The position numbers and the translations under genes are program-made. The notes under the pieces are model-generated. The model did not search any database. It saw nothing but the letters and a program-made list of their open reading frames with translations, and was not told the origin of the DNA. From contig LN554846.1 of NCBI GenBank assembly GCA_000953695.1, positions 1,426,001 through 1,490,000 on the forward strand: 64,000 nucleotides of DNA. Reading direction: 5' to 3'. Positions 49,608-63,489 of this stretch are shown piece by piece (the stretch's first letter is position 1; each line of letters starts with the position of its first letter). This DNA is from Aliivibrio wodanis. Its GTDB lineage: Bacteria > Pseudomonadota > Gammaproteobacteria > Enterobacterales > Vibrionaceae.

Positions 49608-50444
49608 ATGTCATATAGAAGTTTAATCGAAAATATTTCCGTTTTATTCAATTCGAGGCTAAATGAAATATCAGTACACTATAACTTGGAATACGGAAAT
49701 GAATTTGAAGTTGCACTCTGTCATGTGATTAGTTCATTTTTGCCTAAAAAAGCAGGAGTATGTCGAGGGTTTGTTGTTGACTCCGAAGGAAATAAAGTTG
49801 GAGATGACATAATTATTTACGATAAATCATCATATAATACTCTAAGGGGGATTCGTGATGGAGACTTCTCGTTGAAACAGCAAATACCTATTGAAGCTGT
49901 ATATGCATATATAGAAGCAAAAAGTACCGTCTACCTTGAAAGTGATAATCGAAATACTTTGCAAAAAGCGTTGAAACAACAGAGTCAAGTTCGAGAACTA
50001 ATTGGAAAGAGAACCCGCCGTGAAATCAGTGACATAACTCCGTACCTATCACTTCCACAGCAACTGGTTCAAAGCTCCTCTGAGTGGCCAAATTACAAAA
50101 ACCCTCCTTTTACATCAATATGGACAAGGCAAGTCAAGAAAACCCCTAGTTCAAATGACGTTCTGTCAGCTGATGAAATTGTTTCAAGTTTAGATAGAAT
50201 GGGCTGTGATTACCTAATTGATCTATTGGTACTTGGAGAAGACTGTATATCTATACCTATTGTTAAAAGTACACGTAACTACAGTGGTCCGTTTTACACC
50301 AATGGAAAATACCCACATTTATCTACAGTAAATTATGGTACTTCATATGGACTTGGTATGGTTTCTATCTTACAAGCAATTGACTGGATTGAGCTTTCAG
50401 CAATTGATTGGAATAAAGTTGTTTTTGGCGCAATTAAAGACTAA
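49608..50444 (+). CDS. Cassette DUF6602-like protein, possible nuclease fold
   Basis: 278 residues. Motifs GFVVDSEGNKVGDDIIIYDKSS (about 55-76) and PIEAVYAYIEAKSTVYLES (about 93-110) together look like a PD-(D/E)XK-type core (Asp, then ExK). This is the conserved face of DUF6602 proteins, which occur in mobile and defence loci. The C-terminal half (WPNYKNPPFTSIWTRQ, YGLGMVSILQAIDWIE) is unassigned. Cassette position and lack of a partner gene suggest it works alone. Nuclease activity is inference. Confidence 0.7.
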   Translation: MSYRSLIENISVLFNSRLNEISVHYNLEYGNEFEVALCHVISSFLPKKAGVCRGFVVDSEGNKVGDDIIIYDKSSYNTLRGIRDGDFSLKQQIPIEAVYAYIEAKSTVYLESDNRNTLQKALKQQSQVRELIGKRTRREISDITPYLSLPQQLVQSSSEWPNYKNPPFTSIWTRQVKKTPSSNDVLSADEIVSSLDRMGCDYLIDLLVLGEDCISIPIVKSTRNYSGPFYTNGKYPHLSTVNYGTSYGLGMVSILQAIDWIELSAIDWNKVVFGAIKD

Positions 50445-50447
50445 AAA

Positions 50448-51161
50448 ATAAGGATTAAGCGCTGCGAAGCCAGCGTTAAATCCCGGGTGTTGAACAAGCC
50501 CGTAGCCACTTCTTTATAGTAAATTGTACGATCTAGCTTGGTAGGTGCATCGCCTTGAGTCTTTATTCAAGGCGAGTGAGGCCAAGATAAGATTACGATA
50601 GTAATTTTATCAATGGGTTAGCTATTTTTAAAATCGTCTTATATGTTGTTTCTCCTCTGGTTTAACTTTAGCCATTATCCTTATTCTGTTTGCCTTTCGG
50701 CTATCTCGGTCGTGTTATTCCCACGCACTCTATGTCATGTAGACGACGAGGGCAGGTTCGTATTGCTTTGGTGCGGATGGGTATAATGCTTGGCGGAGTT
50801 TGATAATTTAAAGTATGGCGATAGAAAAACTGTAAGCCATTGCGGTCGAGTTTAACGGTGCTCCACGAGTGAGTGCTAATTAAACCGGCGAAGAAGTTTT
50901 TTAAATCAGTCGTGCTTAATGTATCGGGAGAGCGGTCAAAGAACTCGCTAATCCGGCGTACCACTCGAGAATAGGCATCAATGGTAGCAGGTCGTTTACC
51001 TTGCAGAGTTAAGTTGGTAAGGTGTAATTCATAAAGGCGATGATATCGCTCTAGTTCAGTTGGGCTCATGGTGTTTACTCCTGTTATCCGCCATCGAAAT
51101 GATGGAGGTACAGAGAGTATGGACGATACAGGTTTTACTCTGCCGCGAAGCGGCTTCGTTC
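50448..51161 (-). mobile_element. E element copy 1 (full, 714 bp): putative attC-targeting non-autonomous element
   Basis: Begins ATAAGGATTAAGCGCTGCG after the DUF6602 stop codon and ends GCGGCTTCGTTC just before AACAAAGC of an attC. The left end has hairpins: GGATTAAGCGCTG/CCAGCGTTAAATCC, CGGG/CCCG around GTTGAACAAG, CGCCTTGA/TTCAAGGCG, and GATAAGATTAC/AGTAATTTTATC. The right end has GCCGC-GAA-GCGGC. It carries a short gene at 50701-51069. Structured ends plus a shared gene fragment are consistent with a non-autonomous relative of IS91-type elements. Confidence 0.6.
50701..51069 (-). CDS. Chimeric 122-residue protein: tyrosine-recombinase N-terminus fused to transposase-like zinc tail
   Basis: The first 90 residues (MSPTELERYHRLYELHLTNL, then DAYSRVVRRISEFFDRSPDT and DLKNFFAGLI) are the SAM-like DNA-binding domain found at the N-terminus of tyrosine recombinases. 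The last 30 (IRTKAIRTCPRRLHDIECVGITRPR) resemble the C-terminal zinc tail of IS91-family transposases. The catalytic domains of both proteins are absent. It looks like the product of an internal deletion in a two-gene element. Expression is unproven; it could bind element ends. In copy 2 this frame is broken by a stop. Confidence 0.5.
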   Translation of the reverse strand: MSPTELERYHRLYELHLTNLTLQGKRPATIDAYSRVVRRISEFFDRSPDTLSTTDLKNFFAGLISTHSWSTVKLDRNGLQFFYRHTLNYQTPPSIIPIRTKAIRTCPRRLHDIECVGITRPR

Positions 51162-51283
51162 AACAAAGCATTTAATAGTGATTCTCAACGTTTGGCATTT
51201 TGACTATGCGTTGGTTTAAGTGATTAAGGTGGTATGCGGCGTCTTCGGCATTGCGTTGCTCACACCTTAATTGGGCGTTATAT
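51162..51283 (+). repeat. Integron attC site 3
   Basis: Begins AACAAAGCATTTAATAGTG directly after E element 1 and ends TTGGGCGTTATAT. Left arm AACGTTTGGC and a right arm near GCGTTGCTCACACC are present. The element sits exactly at the first bases of this site. Confidence 0.82.
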
Positions 51284-51298
51284 GTGCAGGAGAGTTGC

Positions 51299-52186
51299 GT
51301 GGATTCTGTAAATCATCATTATATCCCTCAACTATATCTTCGAGGGTTTACTGCCGAAAACGGTAGGCTACAAGTATTCGATAAAGTGCACAACAAATTT
51401 AAAAAAGATAAAGAAACACCAAGGACAGTGCTTTTTGAAAAACACCGAAATACAATAAAAGTAGATGGTGTACGAACAGATCATATCGAAAAGTTATACG
51501 GTAAAATTGAAACCCCATTCGCTGATTTTTTTAATTTAATTAGAAAAGGGATCTCGCAAGAGGCATTAATATCTGAAAATGGTATTTACTTATTAAAATT
51601 TTTTGTAGCTAGCCAATTTTGGAGAATGCCGCTTTTAGATGAATTTTCTGATGAATACATTCTCAAATTGGATTTAAATAAATTTGGAAACAGAATTACT
51701 ATAAATGGCTGCAATTTAGGGGATGTAAAGTTTATAAAAAAATTGATTAAAGATGATGAGAATTTTCGTTATTATTTTAGATGTTTTTATCTTCCTTTAT
51801 TAACATTTGATTCTCAAGTTCATGCTCATGACTATGACTGCTGGAGGCTGCACACTGTATCGCCAGAGTATGGAGGTTGGGATAACTTTCTAACCTGTGA
51901 TAATCCATTGGTTGCTGAAAACGTACTTGATATGTTTGCATTTGAGTCTAAATTTATTTTACCGTTATCTAAAACTCAATTAGTAACGTATTCTCCCAGT
52001 GGTAAAAATCATGATGATTTTCCACCTATATTTAGTACTAAATTAGCAATGGCTATGAACTTACAAAGTAAAAAGTATCTTGTAGGAGCAAATAAAGATT
52101 ACATGTCAAAGGTTATTGAACTTCAAGAAAGTATATATGGTTCAGATATAGATAAATTACGAGATGAACTGTTTGAGCACATATAA
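51299..52186 (+). CDS. Cassette DUF4238 protein
   Basis: 295 residues from GTG 51299 (AGGAG upstream). The N-terminus NHHYIPQLYLRGF is the DUF4238 signature (HHxxPxxYLRxF), followed by FDKVHNKFKK and FEKHRNT. DUF4238 proteins are common accessory genes; some sit in toxin or defence contexts but function is unknown. The gene is AT-rich compared with chromosomal neighbours, as expected for a cassette. Confidence 0.8.
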   Translation: MDSVNHHYIPQLYLRGFTAENGRLQVFDKVHNKFKKDKETPRTVLFEKHRNTIKVDGVRTDHIEKLYGKIETPFADFFNLIRKGISQEALISENGIYLLKFFVASQFWRMPLLDEFSDEYILKLDLNKFGNRITINGCNLGDVKFIKKLIKDDENFRYYFRCFYLPLLTFDSQVHAHDYDCWRLHTVSPEYGGWDNFLTCDNPLVAENVLDMFAFESKFILPLSKTQLVTYSPSGKNHDDFPPIFSTKLAMAMNLQSKKYLVGANKDYMSKVIELQESIYGSDIDKLRDELFEHI

Positions 52187-52189
52187 CAA

Positions 52190-52903
52190 ATAAGGATTAA
52201 GCGCTGCGAAGCCAGCGTTAAATCCCGGGTGTTGAACAAGCCCGTAGCCACTTCTTTATAGTAAATTGTACGATCTAGCTTGGTAGGTGCATCGCCTTGA
52301 CTCTTTATTCAAGGCGAGTGAAGCCAAGATAAGATTACGATAGTAACTTTATCAATGAGTTAGCTATTTTTAAAATCGTCTTATTTGTTGTTTCTCCTCT
52401 GGTTCAACCTCAGCCATTATCCTTATTATGTTTGCCTTTCGGCTATCTCGGTCGTGTTATTCCCATGTACTCCATGTCATGCTGGCAGTGTGGGCAGGTT
52501 CGAATTGCTTTGGCTCGGATGGGTATAATGCTTGGCGGAGTTTGATAATTTAAAGTGTAGCGATAGAAAAACTGTAAGCCATTGCGGTCGAGTTTAACGG
52601 TGCTTCACAAGTGAGTGCTAATCAAACTGGCGAAGAAGCTTTTTAAATCAGTCGTACTTAATGTATCGGGACAACGGTCGAAGAACTCGCTAATCCGGTG
52701 GACCGCTTGAGAATAGGCATCAATGATGACAGGTCGTTTACCTTGCAGAGTTAAGTTGGTAAGGTGTAATTCATAAAGGCGATGATATCGCTCTAATTCA
52801 GTTGGGCTCATGGTGTTTACTCCTGTTATCCGCCATCGAAATGATGGAGGTACAGAGAGTATGGACGATACAGGTTTTACTCTGCCGCGAAGCGGCTTCG
52901 TTC
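52190..52903 (-). mobile_element. E element copy 2 (full, 714 bp)
   Basis: Same length and ends as copy 1 and nearly identical in sequence. It lies between the DUF4238 stop and a different attC, again at the first bases of the site. The recombinase-derived frame at 52605-52811 is broken: a TGG-to-TGA change ends it after ISTHL. The zinc tail keeps CPHC (CPHCQHDMEYMG) where copy 1 has CPRR. Confidence 0.6.
52605..52811 (-). pseudogene. Broken recombinase N-terminal fragment in E copy 2
   Basis: Reads like residues 1-67 of the chimeric protein of copy 1, then stops at ISTHL because of a TGG-to-TGA change near 52605-52611. The downstream part still encodes the zinc tail in the expected place. 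Confidence 0.6.
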
Positions 52904-53456: not shown

Positions 53457-53482
53457 GCACAGAGCAAACATACTCATAACAA

Positions 53483-53763
53483 ATAAGGATTAAGCGCTGC
53501 GAAGCCAGCGTTAAATCCCGGATGTTGAACAAGCCCGTAGCCACTTCTTTATAGTAAATTGTACGATCTAGTTTGGTAGGTGAATCGCCTTGAGTCTTTT
53601 CTCAAGGCGAGTGAGGCCAAGATAAGATTACGATAGTAATTTTATCAATGGATTAGCTATTTTTTAAATCGTCTTATTTGTTGTTTCTCCTCTGGTTTAA
53701 CCTTAGCCATTATCCTTATTATGTTTGCCTTTCGGCTATCTCTGCCGCGAAGCGGCTTCGTTC
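53483..53763 (-). mobile_element. E element copy 3 (internally deleted, 281 bp)
   Basis: Has both E ends but lacks about 433 internal bases. The junction reads GGCTATCTC|TGCCGCGAAG, joining two places where full copies both have CTC, so a 3-base microhomology deletion is likely. It carries no gene. It again sits right after a cassette gene and immediately before an attC. Confidence 0.55.
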
Positions 53764-53865
53764 AGCAAAGCAATCAACACGATCTTATTACACTCGGCAT
53801 TCGTGGTTTAGAGTATAATTGGCTTGGTAATTAAGGCGTTCGCACGTGTTATTGCGGCGTTATAA
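53764..53865 (+). repeat. Integron attC site 5
   Basis: From AGCAAAGCAATCAACACG to ATTGCGGCGTTAT. Left arm CAACACG pairs with CACGTGTT-type right sequence. Located right after E copy 3. Confidence 0.78.
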
Positions 53866-53939: not shown

Positions 53940-54218
53940 ATGACTCGACTAAGATTGGACCAAGATATTCAACCACTTTCAGAATTTAGAGCTGGCGTAG
54001 CGTCGTTTATTCGTCAAATTAACGAAACTCGTAGGCCTTTAGTTATCACTCAGCGTGGTAAAGGCGTCGCTGTTGTTTTAGACGTTGCTGAGTATGAAGC
54101 TATGCAAGAGAAAATAGAGTTACTGGAAGAGATGCAACAAGCTGAAGCACAAATCGCTAGTGGTTTCGGTTTATCAAATGACGATGCTCGTTCTAAAATC
54201 TTAGCGCGCTTACGTTAA
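53940..54218 (+). CDS. Phd/YefM-family antitoxin
   Basis: 92 residues. The N-terminal half RLDQDIQPLSEFRAGVASFIRQINETRRPLVITQRGKGVAVVLDVAEYEA is the Phd/YefM DNA-binding fold; the C-terminal third is an acidic helix that would wrap the toxin. It overlaps the toxin start by 1 base. It represses its own promoter in known relatives. Confidence 0.9.
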   Translation: MTRLRLDQDIQPLSEFRAGVASFIRQINETRRPLVITQRGKGVAVVLDVAEYEAMQEKIELLEEMQQAEAQIASGFGLSNDDARSKILARLR

Positions 54219-54505
54219 TGAATGTTATTTGGTCGCCGTTTGCTTTAGACAAAATAGGGCAGACAGCAGACTACATAGCATTAGACAATCCATCAGCGGC
54301 AGAAAACTGGGTTAACGATGTATTCGATAAAGCTGAGAATTTAGGTTCATTTCCAGAGTTGGGTCGTCTTGTCCCTGAGCTGAATAAAGCGAATTATCGT
54401 GAAATCATTTTTGGTAATTACCGCATTATTTATAGCGTAACGTTAAGCATAAATATTTTAACGGTTCGTAACTGTAGTCAATTGCTGGCTATGGCTGATA
54501 TATAA
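54218..54505 (+). CDS. RelE/ParE-family toxin
   Basis: 95 residues. MNVIWSPFALDKIGQTADYIALDNPSAAENWVNDVF, PELGRLVPELNKANYREIIFGNYRIIYSV and the C-terminal stretch match ParE/RelE toxins, which cut mRNA or poison gyrase. The motif YREIIFGNYRIIY is characteristic. It is directly downstream of its antitoxin. Addiction modules of this type are typical of vibrio integron cassettes and may stabilise the array. Confidence 0.9.
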   Translation: MNVIWSPFALDKIGQTADYIALDNPSAAENWVNDVFDKAENLGSFPELGRLVPELNKANYREIIFGNYRIIYSVTLSINILTVRNCSQLLAMADI

Positions 54506-54516
54506 AATTATAACAA

Positions 54517-54603
54517 ATAAGGATTAAGGGCTGCGTAGTCAGCGTTAAATCCCGGGTGTTGAACAAGCCCGTAGCCACTTCTTTATAGTAAATTGTGCGA
54601 TCT
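54517..54603. repeat. E element copy 4 (left end only)
   Basis: ATAAGGATTAAGGGCTGCG to CGATCT, about 87 bases of the E left end. It is followed by unrelated sequence and an attC-like right end (TTTAGGGCGTTAT, ending 54706), so this cassette boundary is degraded or hybrid. Confidence 0.55.
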
Positions 54604-55261: not shown

Positions 55262-55449
55262 TTATAACAAACGACTATGGTGTCAATAATTCAGTTTTGG
55301 AGTTCCCCCTCAAGCTGAAGCTTTTTTATTACTAATACTTCCAAGCTCAGGGAGATTACTTATTGGTATGTTCAAACTTCTATTATGATGAAATATTGGT
55401 AGGTTTTTGATTGGGGCAGGGTGAAGGTGAAGTCCTACAGTCTCGTTAA
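55262..55449 (+). repeat. Cassette end with type-2 boundary (repeat R2, copy a)
   Basis: Starts TAACAAACGACTATGG and ends TCCTACAGTCTCGTTAAC. From about 55360 it matches R2 copies at 57030 and 58116 (TTCTATTATGATGAAATATT). It acts as the right boundary of the GNAT cassette. Confidence 0.55.
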
Positions 55450-55461
55450 CTGGTTCTCGGT

Positions 55462-55965
55462 TTAAATTAATTCACCGATACTGGCTCTAATGTCTGCAAT
55501 TGTAATAAACAGTTTGTTATCAGTGTCTTTGAACGCAGTAAAACCGTATTTCTCATAGAAATATTCAGCGCCATCTTTTGAGTCAACAATGACAACAGGG
55601 AAGGCGACTGTTTCACTTGCCATTAATAGTTTTCTAAGCGCATCAATCAAAAGCCATTCACCGAAACCTTGACCTTTATATCTATGGTCAACGGCTAAGC
55701 GAGCAATCAAACCACCAGAAGTTACACTGTAATGTTTCTTCTGTAATTTAGGAGGTAAATCCTGAATATCAATCGGAGTCATGGTTAATGTGTAATAACC
55801 AATAATGTGCTCAGGACATTGTTTATCTTCAAGAACAAAGGTACGAGTATTGTCTTTCTTAGCTTGTTGGCTTGCCATAACTTTCAAGTAATTATTGAGT
55901 GAGGTAATACCACAATCAAAACGGTTTCGGTCATGTTTAGCTTTTTCTAATTGGACAGTATTCAT
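55462..55965 (-). CDS. GNAT-family toxin (TacT-like)
   Basis: 167 residues. LIARLAVDHRYKGQGFGEWLLIDAL near residue 86 is the acetyl-CoA loop, followed by VVIVDSKDGAEYFYEKYGF. This GNAT, next to a DUF1778 antitoxin, fits TacT/AtaT-type toxins that acetylate charged tRNA and stop translation. It overlaps the antitoxin by 1 base. The module reads leftward, against the direction of the cassettes. Confidence 0.85.
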   Translation of the reverse strand: MNTVQLEKAKHDRNRFDCGITSLNNYLKVMASQQAKKDNTRTFVLEDKQCPEHIIGYYTLTMTPIDIQDLPPKLQKKHYSVTSGGLIARLAVDHRYKGQGFGEWLLIDALRKLLMASETVAFPVVIVDSKDGAEYFYEKYGFTAFKDTDNKLFITIADIRASIGELI

Positions 55966-56237
55966 TATTGAGTTTTATTCATATAACGTGAAGCGGCTTG
56001 TTGTAACTTGCTATTTGGTTTGGCTGGTTGGTCTAACGCAGTCATTAAACTCATAGCATCTTGCTGACTTAGTTGTAAGGCACGTTCACGTTCCATAATA
56101 GTTTTTGCTTTTTCTACAGCCGCACTAAGCACAAATGAGTTAATGCTAGACATACCGGCAATAGCCGCAGCTTGAGACAGTAGTTCTTGTGTCTCAATAT
56201 CTACACGTGCTGTAATACGAGGTAATGCAGTAGCCAT
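55965..56237 (-). CDS. DUF1778-family antitoxin (TacA-like)
   Basis: 90 residues from the ATG at 56237 (GGAG 5-6 bases upstream). The ribbon-helix-helix N-terminus MATALPRITARVDIETQELL binds DNA, and MSSINSFVLSAAVEKA follows; the C-terminal helix wraps the toxin. Two copies of a GTG-CAAAGTG-CAC operator lie upstream. It is the first gene of the pair. Confidence 0.85.
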   Translation of the reverse strand: MATALPRITARVDIETQELLSQAAAIAGMSSINSFVLSAAVEKAKTIMERERALQLSQQDAMSLMTALDQPAKPNSKLQQAASRYMNKTQ

Positions 56238-56251
56238 AATAATCTCCATTG

Positions 56252-56382: not shown

Positions 56383-56742
56383 ATGAATCAGCATGAAAAA
56401 CTAAATTATGTAGAGTTTGGTGCAAAGGACTTAGAATCAACTAAATCATTTTTCTCTTCAGTTTTTGGTTGGAATTTTGTCGACTATGGTCCGGAATATT
56501 CAGCGTTTTCCAATCAGGGTTTAGACGGTGGTTTCTTTAAGGCAGATTCTTGCAGCCAGACAAATTCTGGCGGGGCTCTTTTGGTCTTTTACAGTGCGGA
56601 TATCGAATCTACATTGAGTAAAGTTGTTCAAAGTGATGGTGAAATCATTCGTCCTATATTTGAGTTTCCTGGTGGCTGTCGCTTTCACTTTCTAGAGCCA
56701 AGCGGCAATGAGTTCGCAGTTTGGTCGGAAGCTCGCATATAA
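56383..56742 (+). CDS. Cassette VOC-family protein
   Basis: 119 residues with the glyoxalase/bleomycin-resistance fold: MNQHEKLNYVEFGAKDLESTKSFFSSVFGWNFVDYG, then LLVFYSADIESTL and HFLEPSGNEFAVWSE. The metal residues are only partly conserved (Glu in the last strand). Bleomycin-type resistance cannot be claimed. It is preceded by AGAAAGGGG. Confidence 0.8.
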   Translation: MNQHEKLNYVEFGAKDLESTKSFFSSVFGWNFVDYGPEYSAFSNQGLDGGFFKADSCSQTNSGGALLVFYSADIESTLSKVVQSDGEIIRPIFEFPGGCRFHFLEPSGNEFAVWSEARI

Positions 56743-56745
56743 CAA

Positions 56746-56909
56746 ATAAGGATTAAGCGCTACCAGCGTTAAATCTCCTCTGGTTTCACTTTAGCCATTA
56801 TCCTTATTATGTTTGCCTTTCGGCTATCTCGATCGCGTTATACCCACGCACTCCATGTCATGCAGACAATGAGGGCAGTTTCGTATTGCTTTGGCTCAAA
56901 TGGGTATAG
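56746..56909 (-). repeat. E element copy 5 (fragment)
   Basis: E left end ATAAGGATTAAGCGC joined, by an internal deletion, to the part that encodes the zinc tail (minus strand RNCPHCLHDMECVGITRS). The tail keeps the CPHC pair. The copy continues into unrelated sequence that matches copy 8 near 62570-62620, then a type-2 cassette end. Confidence 0.5.
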
Positions 56910-57023: not shown

Positions 57024-57114
57024 GTAGTTAGTGTGTCCAGGCTTCTATTATGATGAAATATTGATAGGAATTTAGTTGGGACTGGGTGGGGAGTAATCCT
57101 ATAGCCTCGTTAGG
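57024..57114 (+). repeat. Cassette end of type 2 (repeat R2, copy b)
   Basis: AGTTAGTGTGTCCAGGCTTCTATTATGATGAAATATTGATAGG through AATCCTATAGCCTCGTTAG. Homologous to R2 copies a and c. It directly precedes the GIY-YIG gene. Confidence 0.6.
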
Positions 57115-57971: not shown

Positions 57972-57978
57972 CCTACAA

Positions 57979-58115
57979 ATAAGGATTAAGCTCAGCCAGC
58001 GTTAAATGCCGGGTGTTGAACAAGCCCGTAGCCACTTCTTATAGTAAATTGTACTATCTAGTTTGGTAGGTGCATCGTCTTGAGTCTTTATCAAGGCAAG
58101 CGAGGCTAAGATAAT
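57979..58115 (-). repeat. E element copy 6 (left part)
   Basis: ATAAGGATTAAGCTCAGCCAGCG to the CGTCTTGAG/TCAAGGCAAGCGAGG hairpin, about 137 bases of E. The E copy then joins the R2 repeat. Confidence 0.55.
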
Positions 58116-58208
58116 TAGTTATTGGTATATTCAATCTTCTATTATGCTGACATGTGGATAGGATCTTGTCTGAGAATGGGCGAGGGAGAAACCCTACAGC
58201 CTCGTTAG
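58116..58208 (+). repeat. Cassette end of type 2 (repeat R2, copy c)
   Basis: TTAGTTATTGGTATATTCAATCTTCTATTATG to AAACCCTACAGCCTCGTTAG. Boundary of the S66 cassette. Confidence 0.6.
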
Positions 58209-59724: not shown

Positions 59725-59739
59725 ATCTTGGCATAATAA

Positions 59740-59906
59740 ATAAGGATTAAGCGCTGTGCAGCCAGCGTTAAATTCCGGGTGTTGAACAAGCCCGTAGCCA
59801 CGTATTCGTTGCAAGCCTTTAGAACAATACATGCTGCAAGATGAACAGCAAGAGCTCAAGGGTGGGTAAAGTGCCAATTCATAAAGGCGATGATATCGTT
59901 CTAGTT
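59740..59906 (-). repeat. E element copy 7 (two fragments)
   Basis: ATAAGGATTAAGCGCTGTGCAG (59740-59804) is an E left end. The piece AATTCATAAAGGCGATGATATCG (59876-59906) matches the region around the recombinase start. Between them is unrelated sequence. It then joins the right half of an attC at 59907-59977 (TTAACGCTGCGTTATAT). Confidence 0.5.
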
Positions 59907-59989
59907 AAGTTTAGTGTTTACGGTGGTATGGTTTAGGTAAGGTGGTAGTGTGCTCACTACTTAACGCTGCGTTATATGCAGTGTTAGGT

Positions 59990-62353: not shown

Positions 62354-62388
62354 ATGGAAATGATAATTAAACAGGCTTCATTTGTTAT

Positions 62389-62546
62389 ATCTCCTCTGGT
62401 TTAAATTCAGCCATTATATTTATTATGTTTGCCTTTTCGGCTATATCGGTCGCGTTATTCCCACGCATTCCATGTCATGTTGACAGTGTGGGCAAGCTCT
62501 TACTGCTTTGGTACGGATAGTCATAGTCGTTGTCGGAGTTTGATAA
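62389..62546 (-). repeat. E element copy 8 (internal fragment)
   Basis: TCTCCTCTGGTTTAAATTC to TCGGAGTTTGATA matches E internal sequence and includes the zinc-tail region (minus strand RACPHCQHDMECVGITRP). It then continues in sequence shared with copy 5 (GATAGGGACAAA ... TTTTGGTTCGG). Confidence 0.5.
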
Positions 62547-62640
62547 AAAACGCGAAGCATGAGTTGTTCGTCGATGATGATAGGGACAAAGATATTTTGG
62601 TTCGGGTGGTCGATTTTTAAGTTGGGCAGGATTTTGGTTT

Positions 62641-63407: not shown

Positions 63408-63421
63408 TGTACTTATAACAA

Positions 63422-63489
63422 ATAAGGATTACGCGCTGTGCAGCCAGCGTTAAATTCCGGGTATTGAACAAGCCCGTAGCTACTACTTC
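63422..63489. repeat. E element copy 9 (left end)
   Basis: ATAAGGATTACGCGCTGTGCAGCC to CCGTAGCTACTA, 15 bases after the higA stop. After it the sequence is unlike E and leads to a possible boundary TCTCGTTTAGCC at 63513-63524. Confidence 0.5.

Follow-up and report, generated by a model that had tools for sequence, protein, structure and literature searches.

Group IIC-attC introns insert at the R'' box of the attC bottom strand, with the consensus TTGT/T (PMC7923331), and the IS1111-attC insertion sequences (IS110/IS1111 family) target attC according to the passage of PMC9229058 that cites them. The association of IS91-like elements with attC has also been noted before, through ISShvi3, an IS91-like element that adjoins an attC in a Shewanella integron (PMC9229058); that report, to which the elements analyzed here are likened by description, covers one case and contains no insertion point, target rule or shortened derivatives. 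Within the IS91 family, IS801 gives rise to miniature derivatives by one-ended transposition (PMC3189936). No description of a target rule for IS91-type elements at attC was found in a literature search that left subscription papers mostly out of reach.

Here, we analyzed a window of 64,000 nucleotides from the genome of Aliivibrio wodanis (contig LN554846.1, positions 1,426,001 to 1,490,000; all positions below are counted within this window unless a locus is named). The window contains an open frame of 122 aa (50701-51069, minus strand) that starts with ATG directly downstream of an AGGAG-type ribosome-binding site. Residues 1-88 correspond to the N-terminus of a tyrosine recombinase, with a match to PF13495 (Phage_int_SAM_4) over residues 12-88 that exceeds the curated Pfam cut-off (E = 6.1 × 10−18), and the last 34 residues derive from the C-terminus (residues 322-355) of an IS91-type Y2 transposase. 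A first-pass annotation had described this ORF as a chimera of a recombinase N-terminal part and the zinc tail of an IS91-like transposase, both without catalytic parts. The chimera and the lack of catalytic parts are borne out: the catalytic domain of the parent recombinase (residues 112-270), the transposase HUH motif (residue 158) and the transposase tyrosines (235 onwards) are all missing. The tail, however, does not correspond to the zinc domain of IS91 transposases in Pfam, which occupies residues 22-103 of the transposase, i.e. the opposite end. As annotated, the tail occurs in four copies in the window, with CPRR, a broken form of the CPHC pair, in the fused ORF at 50.7 kb, and CPHC at 52.4, 56.8 and 62.4 kb, but the recombinase-transposase junction is confined to two of them (50.8 and 52.5 kb), of which a single one has an open frame. 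A parallel with ORF121 of IS91, which is of similar length, was rejected: the ORF at that place in E. coli IS91 shows neither a Pfam match nor any sign of a SAM-like domain. We consider it likely, with a probability of about 0.85 on the sequence evidence, that the fused ORF arose as a by-product of internal deletion in a 2.3-kb element that encodes a tyrosine recombinase and an HUH/Y2 transposase; this element and its shortened derivatives would be mobilized in trans and insert at the R'' box of attC.

A search of the same genome with 711 bp around the fused ORF yielded 20 matches, including two loci where the two halves stand about 2 kb apart. An intact parent of 2,302 bp, both ends of which match those of the window copy, is located on chromosome 2 (L032; C2:770375-772676), and a second, damaged copy lies in a chromosome 1 array close to an integron integrase. 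This is the ancestor postulated by the first-pass annotation, intact at one locus and degraded at the other, with the two halves in neighbouring genes of one element. Both parent genes are intact and overlap by 4 bp. The recombinase (295 aa, L032 1468-2355) matches Phage_int_SAM_4 and Phage_integrase and is 100% identical to the fused ORF over residues 1-88 of the latter; the transposase (355 aa, L032 2352-3419) matches Y2_Tnp and Zn_Tnp_IS91 (PF04986, E = 1.5 × 10−42; PF14319, E = 1.7 × 10−25) and contains the motifs HPHIH and YLSRY. The possibility that the parent recombinase is an integron integrase was rejected, given a score of 86.6 bits against a family cut-off of 265 and the absence of the IntI-specific insertion from the alignment; the IntI of this genome is a distant relative, with 28% identity. 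Three Y2 transposase genes were found in the genome, the third being a 398-aa open frame (L035, G000:C3:86695-87228) on a 92-kb contig.

Like members of the IS91 family, the parent encodes a Y2 transposase with the IS91 zinc-binding domain and has a left end formed by GAAC and a GC-rich hairpin. Unlike IS91 and IS801 (PMC3189936), it carries an additional tyrosine recombinase gene, and the target of its group is TTGTT^RRRY in attC as opposed to GAAC/CAAG-type tetranucleotides; because target preference is a defining character, we refer to the parent as an IS91-type element rather than a typical IS91 member. A recombinase and IS91 transposase pair on a Sinorhizobium meliloti plasmid has the same gene order, with a transposase that is about 30% identical and no annotated integron context.

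The fused ORF lies within the first of three shortened derivatives with a left end in the window, denoted mini-element 1 (719 bp, 50443-51161, minus strand; left, GAAC, end at 51161 and right end at 50443 by alignment to L032), mini-element 2 (719 bp, 52185-52903, minus strand) and mini-element 3 (286 bp, 53478-53763, minus strand). All three sit between a cassette gene and an attC. The stop codon of a 278-aa cassette ORF (49608-50444, plus strand) overlaps the right end of mini-element 1, which was taken in by the attC of this cassette. That attC (51158-51283, plus strand) has recognizable R'' and R' core boxes and paired arms, the R'' box (GTTCAAC) being completed by the GAAC of mini-element 1, and was detected at 73.4 bits (E = 4.9 × 10−17) by a covariance model, R1, built from 12 attC sites that touch no element; the covariance model was used because single-sequence DNA folding of the site was not distinctive (z = −0.49). 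A 311-aa cassette ORF (51251-52186, plus strand) is located upstream of mini-element 2, the attC of which is degenerate and falls under the model threshold, and the attC abutting mini-element 3 (53760-53865, plus strand) was detected by R1 with E = 4.3 × 10−4. The attC sites of the array are of the Vibrio type. The genome encodes two integron integrases, one on chromosome 1 at a distance of about 357 kb and the other on chromosome 2; thus, the window is an attC cluster without a nearby integrase. The location at integron attC sites had not figured in the first-pass annotation.

The left end of mini-element 1 (GAACGAAGCCGCTTCGCGGCAGAG; 51138-51161, minus strand) consists of GAAC and an adjoining GC-rich hairpin, an arrangement known from the left ends of IS91-family elements (PMC3189936), and the combination of GAAC with the GC-rich stem-loop GAACGAAGCCGCTTCGCGGC is near-invariant among the 42 elements with a recognizable left end that we collected, a set that includes full-length and shortened elements, not all of them independent. 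When the window copies are read on the recombinase-to-transposase strand, the flank ends with TTTGTT (TTGCT in two copies), the element starts with GAACGAAGCCGC and ends with CCTTATTTGTT (TTTTTT in mini-element 1), and the rest of the R'' box comes next, i.e. the R'' core box is split on the attC bottom strand at GTT^RRRY. Exact TTGTT precedes 36 of the 42 elements, and in 30 of the 42, model R1 placed an attC directly against the left end, with the register conserved; in three more, including the aadA1 attC, the site is clear from arm pairing, four cases are doubtful, and the remaining five lack a recognizable attC. We found relatives of the recombinase (E ≤ 1 × 10−60) in 37 of 329 Vibrionaceae genomes, and right ends in 103 of the 329. 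The insertion point is one base away from that of group IIC-attC introns, which are retrotransposing ribozymes with a reverse transcriptase, whereas the two genes of the parent have only recombinase and transposase Pfam matches. The IS1111-attC elements differ from those described here in their ends and in possessing a DEDD transposase (PMC11187229) as opposed to HUH/Y2. On a Photobacterium damselae plasmid (L138 182-1654), a group II intron reverse transcriptase gene was observed near a recombinase+IS91 element that in turn adjoins an attC-like sequence.

A full element of this type is also present on the E. coli IncC plasmid RCS41_p (L055 3893-6228; 2,336 bp counted from GAAC to TTGTT), with a recombinase that is 66% identical. 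It lies in a class 1 integron, where it is flanked by aadA1 and qacEdelta1, and it interrupts the aadA1 attC, for which the uninterrupted aadA1 attC of R100 represents the empty site. The plasmid flanks join as GAATTGTT^AGACATT; the 5-bp sequence TTGTT is common to the target and the right end of the element, such that no duplication and a 5-bp duplication look alike. Here, AGAC is the remainder of R'' (GTTRRRY, bottom strand) and GAAC is brought by the element, and both junctions, GTT-GAAC and GTT-AGAC, fit GTTRRRY. When complete E. coli genomes were searched by megablast, the RCS41_p element gave no match, and a search for empty sites of the Aliivibrio insertions via relatives of two cassette ORFs recovered only distant relatives with uninformative flanks.

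These junctions are suggestive of a mechanism in which the full element and its shortened derivatives would be mobilized in trans by the proteins of the parent and would enter attC on its bottom strand, splitting R'' between GTT and RRRY. With GAAC at the start of the element and TTTGTT at its end, both junctions would read GTTRRRY again, the attC would keep a complete R'' box, and the element would become an inner part of the cassette, between the gene and attC; because the GAAC of the element rebuilds the R'' box, the host cassette may retain its mobility. If the polarity is as in IS91 and IS801 (PMC3189936), the left end (GAAC, hairpin) would serve as the terminus and the end on the transposase side as the origin. 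The HUH transposase, the recombinase or both are candidates for the inserting enzyme, and the recombinase may either determine the target or catalyse the insertion itself. In a stronger version, which we regard as rather unlikely, integration would be a cassette-like tyrosine recombinase reaction at the GTTRRRY core, and the HUH transposase would only make a circular, possibly single-stranded, form. Such a reaction would fit the observation that both junctions conform to the attC core consensus, as well as the full catalytic domain of the recombinase in intact copies and its distant relationship to the IntI of the genome. However, the insertions are at R'', whereas IntI recombines cassettes at R', and the score of the recombinase is under the integron-integrase cut-off. 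In addition, IS91 and IS801 bear a target-like tetranucleotide at one end, too (PMC3189936), and HUH chemistry explains the pattern equally well.

Conceivably, the elements could follow a general preference for TTGTT or similar AT-rich targets, and insertions at attC would then merely reflect the abundance of such targets in cassette arrays, which are non-essential. Some copies outside recognizable attC (L070, L078, L086), most of them still located after TTGTT, are in line with this possibility. However, it appears improbable in view of the exact register at attC in 30 of the 42 elements and the interruption of the aadA1 attC by another, given that attC-like pairing comparable to that at the insertions (score of at least 14) was absent from all 214 TTGTT sites that served as controls, which came from 45 kb of the window that is not integron sequence.

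The deletion origin of the fused ORF is apparent from the alignment of mini-element 1 with the parent. Mini-element 1 combines bases 1-355 of the parent with its last ~364 bases, with both ends and the reading frame kept. The two segments meet at AAAT|TATC (50800-50807, minus strand), where they share 1 bp of microhomology, and the intervening 1.58 kb has been lost. Judged by these sequences, the fused ORF was created when a two-gene transposable element lost its interior, in agreement with the collapse proposed by the first-pass annotation. The alignment takes in almost all of the 719 bp, so that a chance match can be discounted. The left part is identical to the intact parent (355/355), whereas the right part is less similar (338/357, 94.7%), and mini-element 1 is evidently a mosaic, the left part of which was recently exchanged with the parent. 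Mini-element 2 has the identical junction, but its identity to the parent is 94.6% in the left part and 95.5% in the right part, and its ORF is stopped after 68 aa. The recent exchange with the parent would account for the ORF being open in mini-element 1 but stopped in mini-element 2; together with a deletion that was in frame, presumably by chance, it would explain why the fused ORF is open. The first-pass annotation had named recurrence of the exact chimera in many genomes as an argument against its own reading; among 329 Vibrionaceae genomes, the junction (no more than 2 mismatches) was found in the window's genome only, in these two copies.

Mini-elements 1 and 2 retain both ends of the parent and lack the transposase gene, and thus are non-autonomous (MITE-type) elements. 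Their identical junction in two unrelated cassettes fits movement after the deletion, i.e. the non-autonomous spread envisaged at first pass, although conversion of one neighbouring copy by the other, rather than transposition, could have given the same result. The right end of mini-element 1 is mutated, with TTTTTT in place of TTTGTT, and therefore this copy may be immobile. Mini-element 3, which is also present in two congeneric genomes (G001 and G007), keeps both ends but has a different junction and has lost the recombinase gene. Further derivatives with junctions of their own are 752 bp (G010, with a stop like that of mini-element 2), 484 bp (G008) and 1034 bp long (G012, where the junction lies at an 11-bp direct repeat and the resulting fusion of 227 aa is in frame), so that the six derivatives compared with the parent (719, 719, 286, 752, 484 and 1034 bp) represent five different junctions, with microhomology from 1 to about 11 bp. 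Yet another shortened element, on the Photobacterium toruni plasmid NZ_CP101696.1 (L140 516-881), is located at an attC-like site and encodes a 121-aa SAM-only ORF that is annotated as a gene. At least five derivatives, then, have junctions other than that of mini-elements 1 and 2, and internal deletion is therefore recurrent. One-ended transposition was rejected as the origin of mini-elements 1-3, in which both ends are present. Like these, the IS801 miniatures are short derivatives that lost the transposase, but they are continuous right-end fragments, whereas the derivatives described here keep both ends and have lost the middle.

It is highly improbable that the 122-aa protein is a retained product, i.e. 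a dead recombinase fragment that would bind element ends or attC and regulate transposition or cassette recombination: a complete SAM-like domain, the start codon and the ribosome-binding site are preserved, and the SAM domain is in frame in independent derivatives (the 227-aa fusion and the 121-aa plasmid ORF), but the sister copy and the 752-bp derivative are stopped, mini-element 3 lacks the gene, the junction is confined to one genome, the open frame is accounted for by the recent exchange with the parent, and the Cys pair of the tail is broken. Thus, the suggestion of a retained DNA-binding product in the first-pass annotation found no support. The frame is open in a single copy in a single genome. 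The protein is probably not under selection; a functional mini-protein is possible but without support.

The mini-protein itself appears to be a case of ordinary decay, and it is the landing site that may matter. The HUH/Y2 element inserts within a base of the group IIC intron point by unrelated chemistry, which suggests that both types of element exploit the folded bottom strand of attC, and insertion at R'' would give cassettes a route to gain inserts without loss of the recombination site. The related copy in the class 1 integron of an E. coli IncC plasmid indicates that the group has reached clinically relevant integrons. More tentatively, and with the odds somewhat against it, IS91-type elements of a lineage that acquired a tyrosine recombinase might use R'' of attC as a harmless landing site, the rebuilt core boxes keeping the cassette mobile and so carrying the element and its shrunken forms through chromosomal and clinical class 1 integrons. 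If this is the case, repeated insertion and shrinkage would mean that the elements shape cassettes and perhaps help join genes to attC sites.

Beyond the three mini-elements, the window contains remnants of the parent, all on the minus strand: a 92-bp right-end remnant without a left end (54512-54603), a right end with the transposase tail (56741-56908, a CPHC copy), two further right-end remnants (57974-58114 and 63417-63488), a remnant of three non-adjacent parent pieces (59735-59911) and a transposase-tail remnant with neither end (62367-62564, also a CPHC copy). In five cassettes (at 54.5, 56.7, 58.0, 59.7 and 63.4 kb), the right (transposase-side) end is kept and the left end is gone each time, and in most of these, no ordinary 5' half of attC follows. 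Decay after insertion is the simplest reading, although it is noteworthy that the same side was lost repeatedly; one-ended transposition is not favoured for these remnants because the expected AACAAAG start of attC is absent after the break. Judging from translations only, the window also contains two toxin-antitoxin-like cassettes, with Phd/YefM and RelE-like products (53940-54505) and DUF1778 and GNAT-like products (55462-56249). Finally, three cassettes end with a second type of 3' end, a 61-nt repeat (55363-55423, 57028-57088 and 58122-58182) that is unlike the Vibrio-type attC; in at least two of the three copies, CCTCGTTA is found shortly after this repeat.
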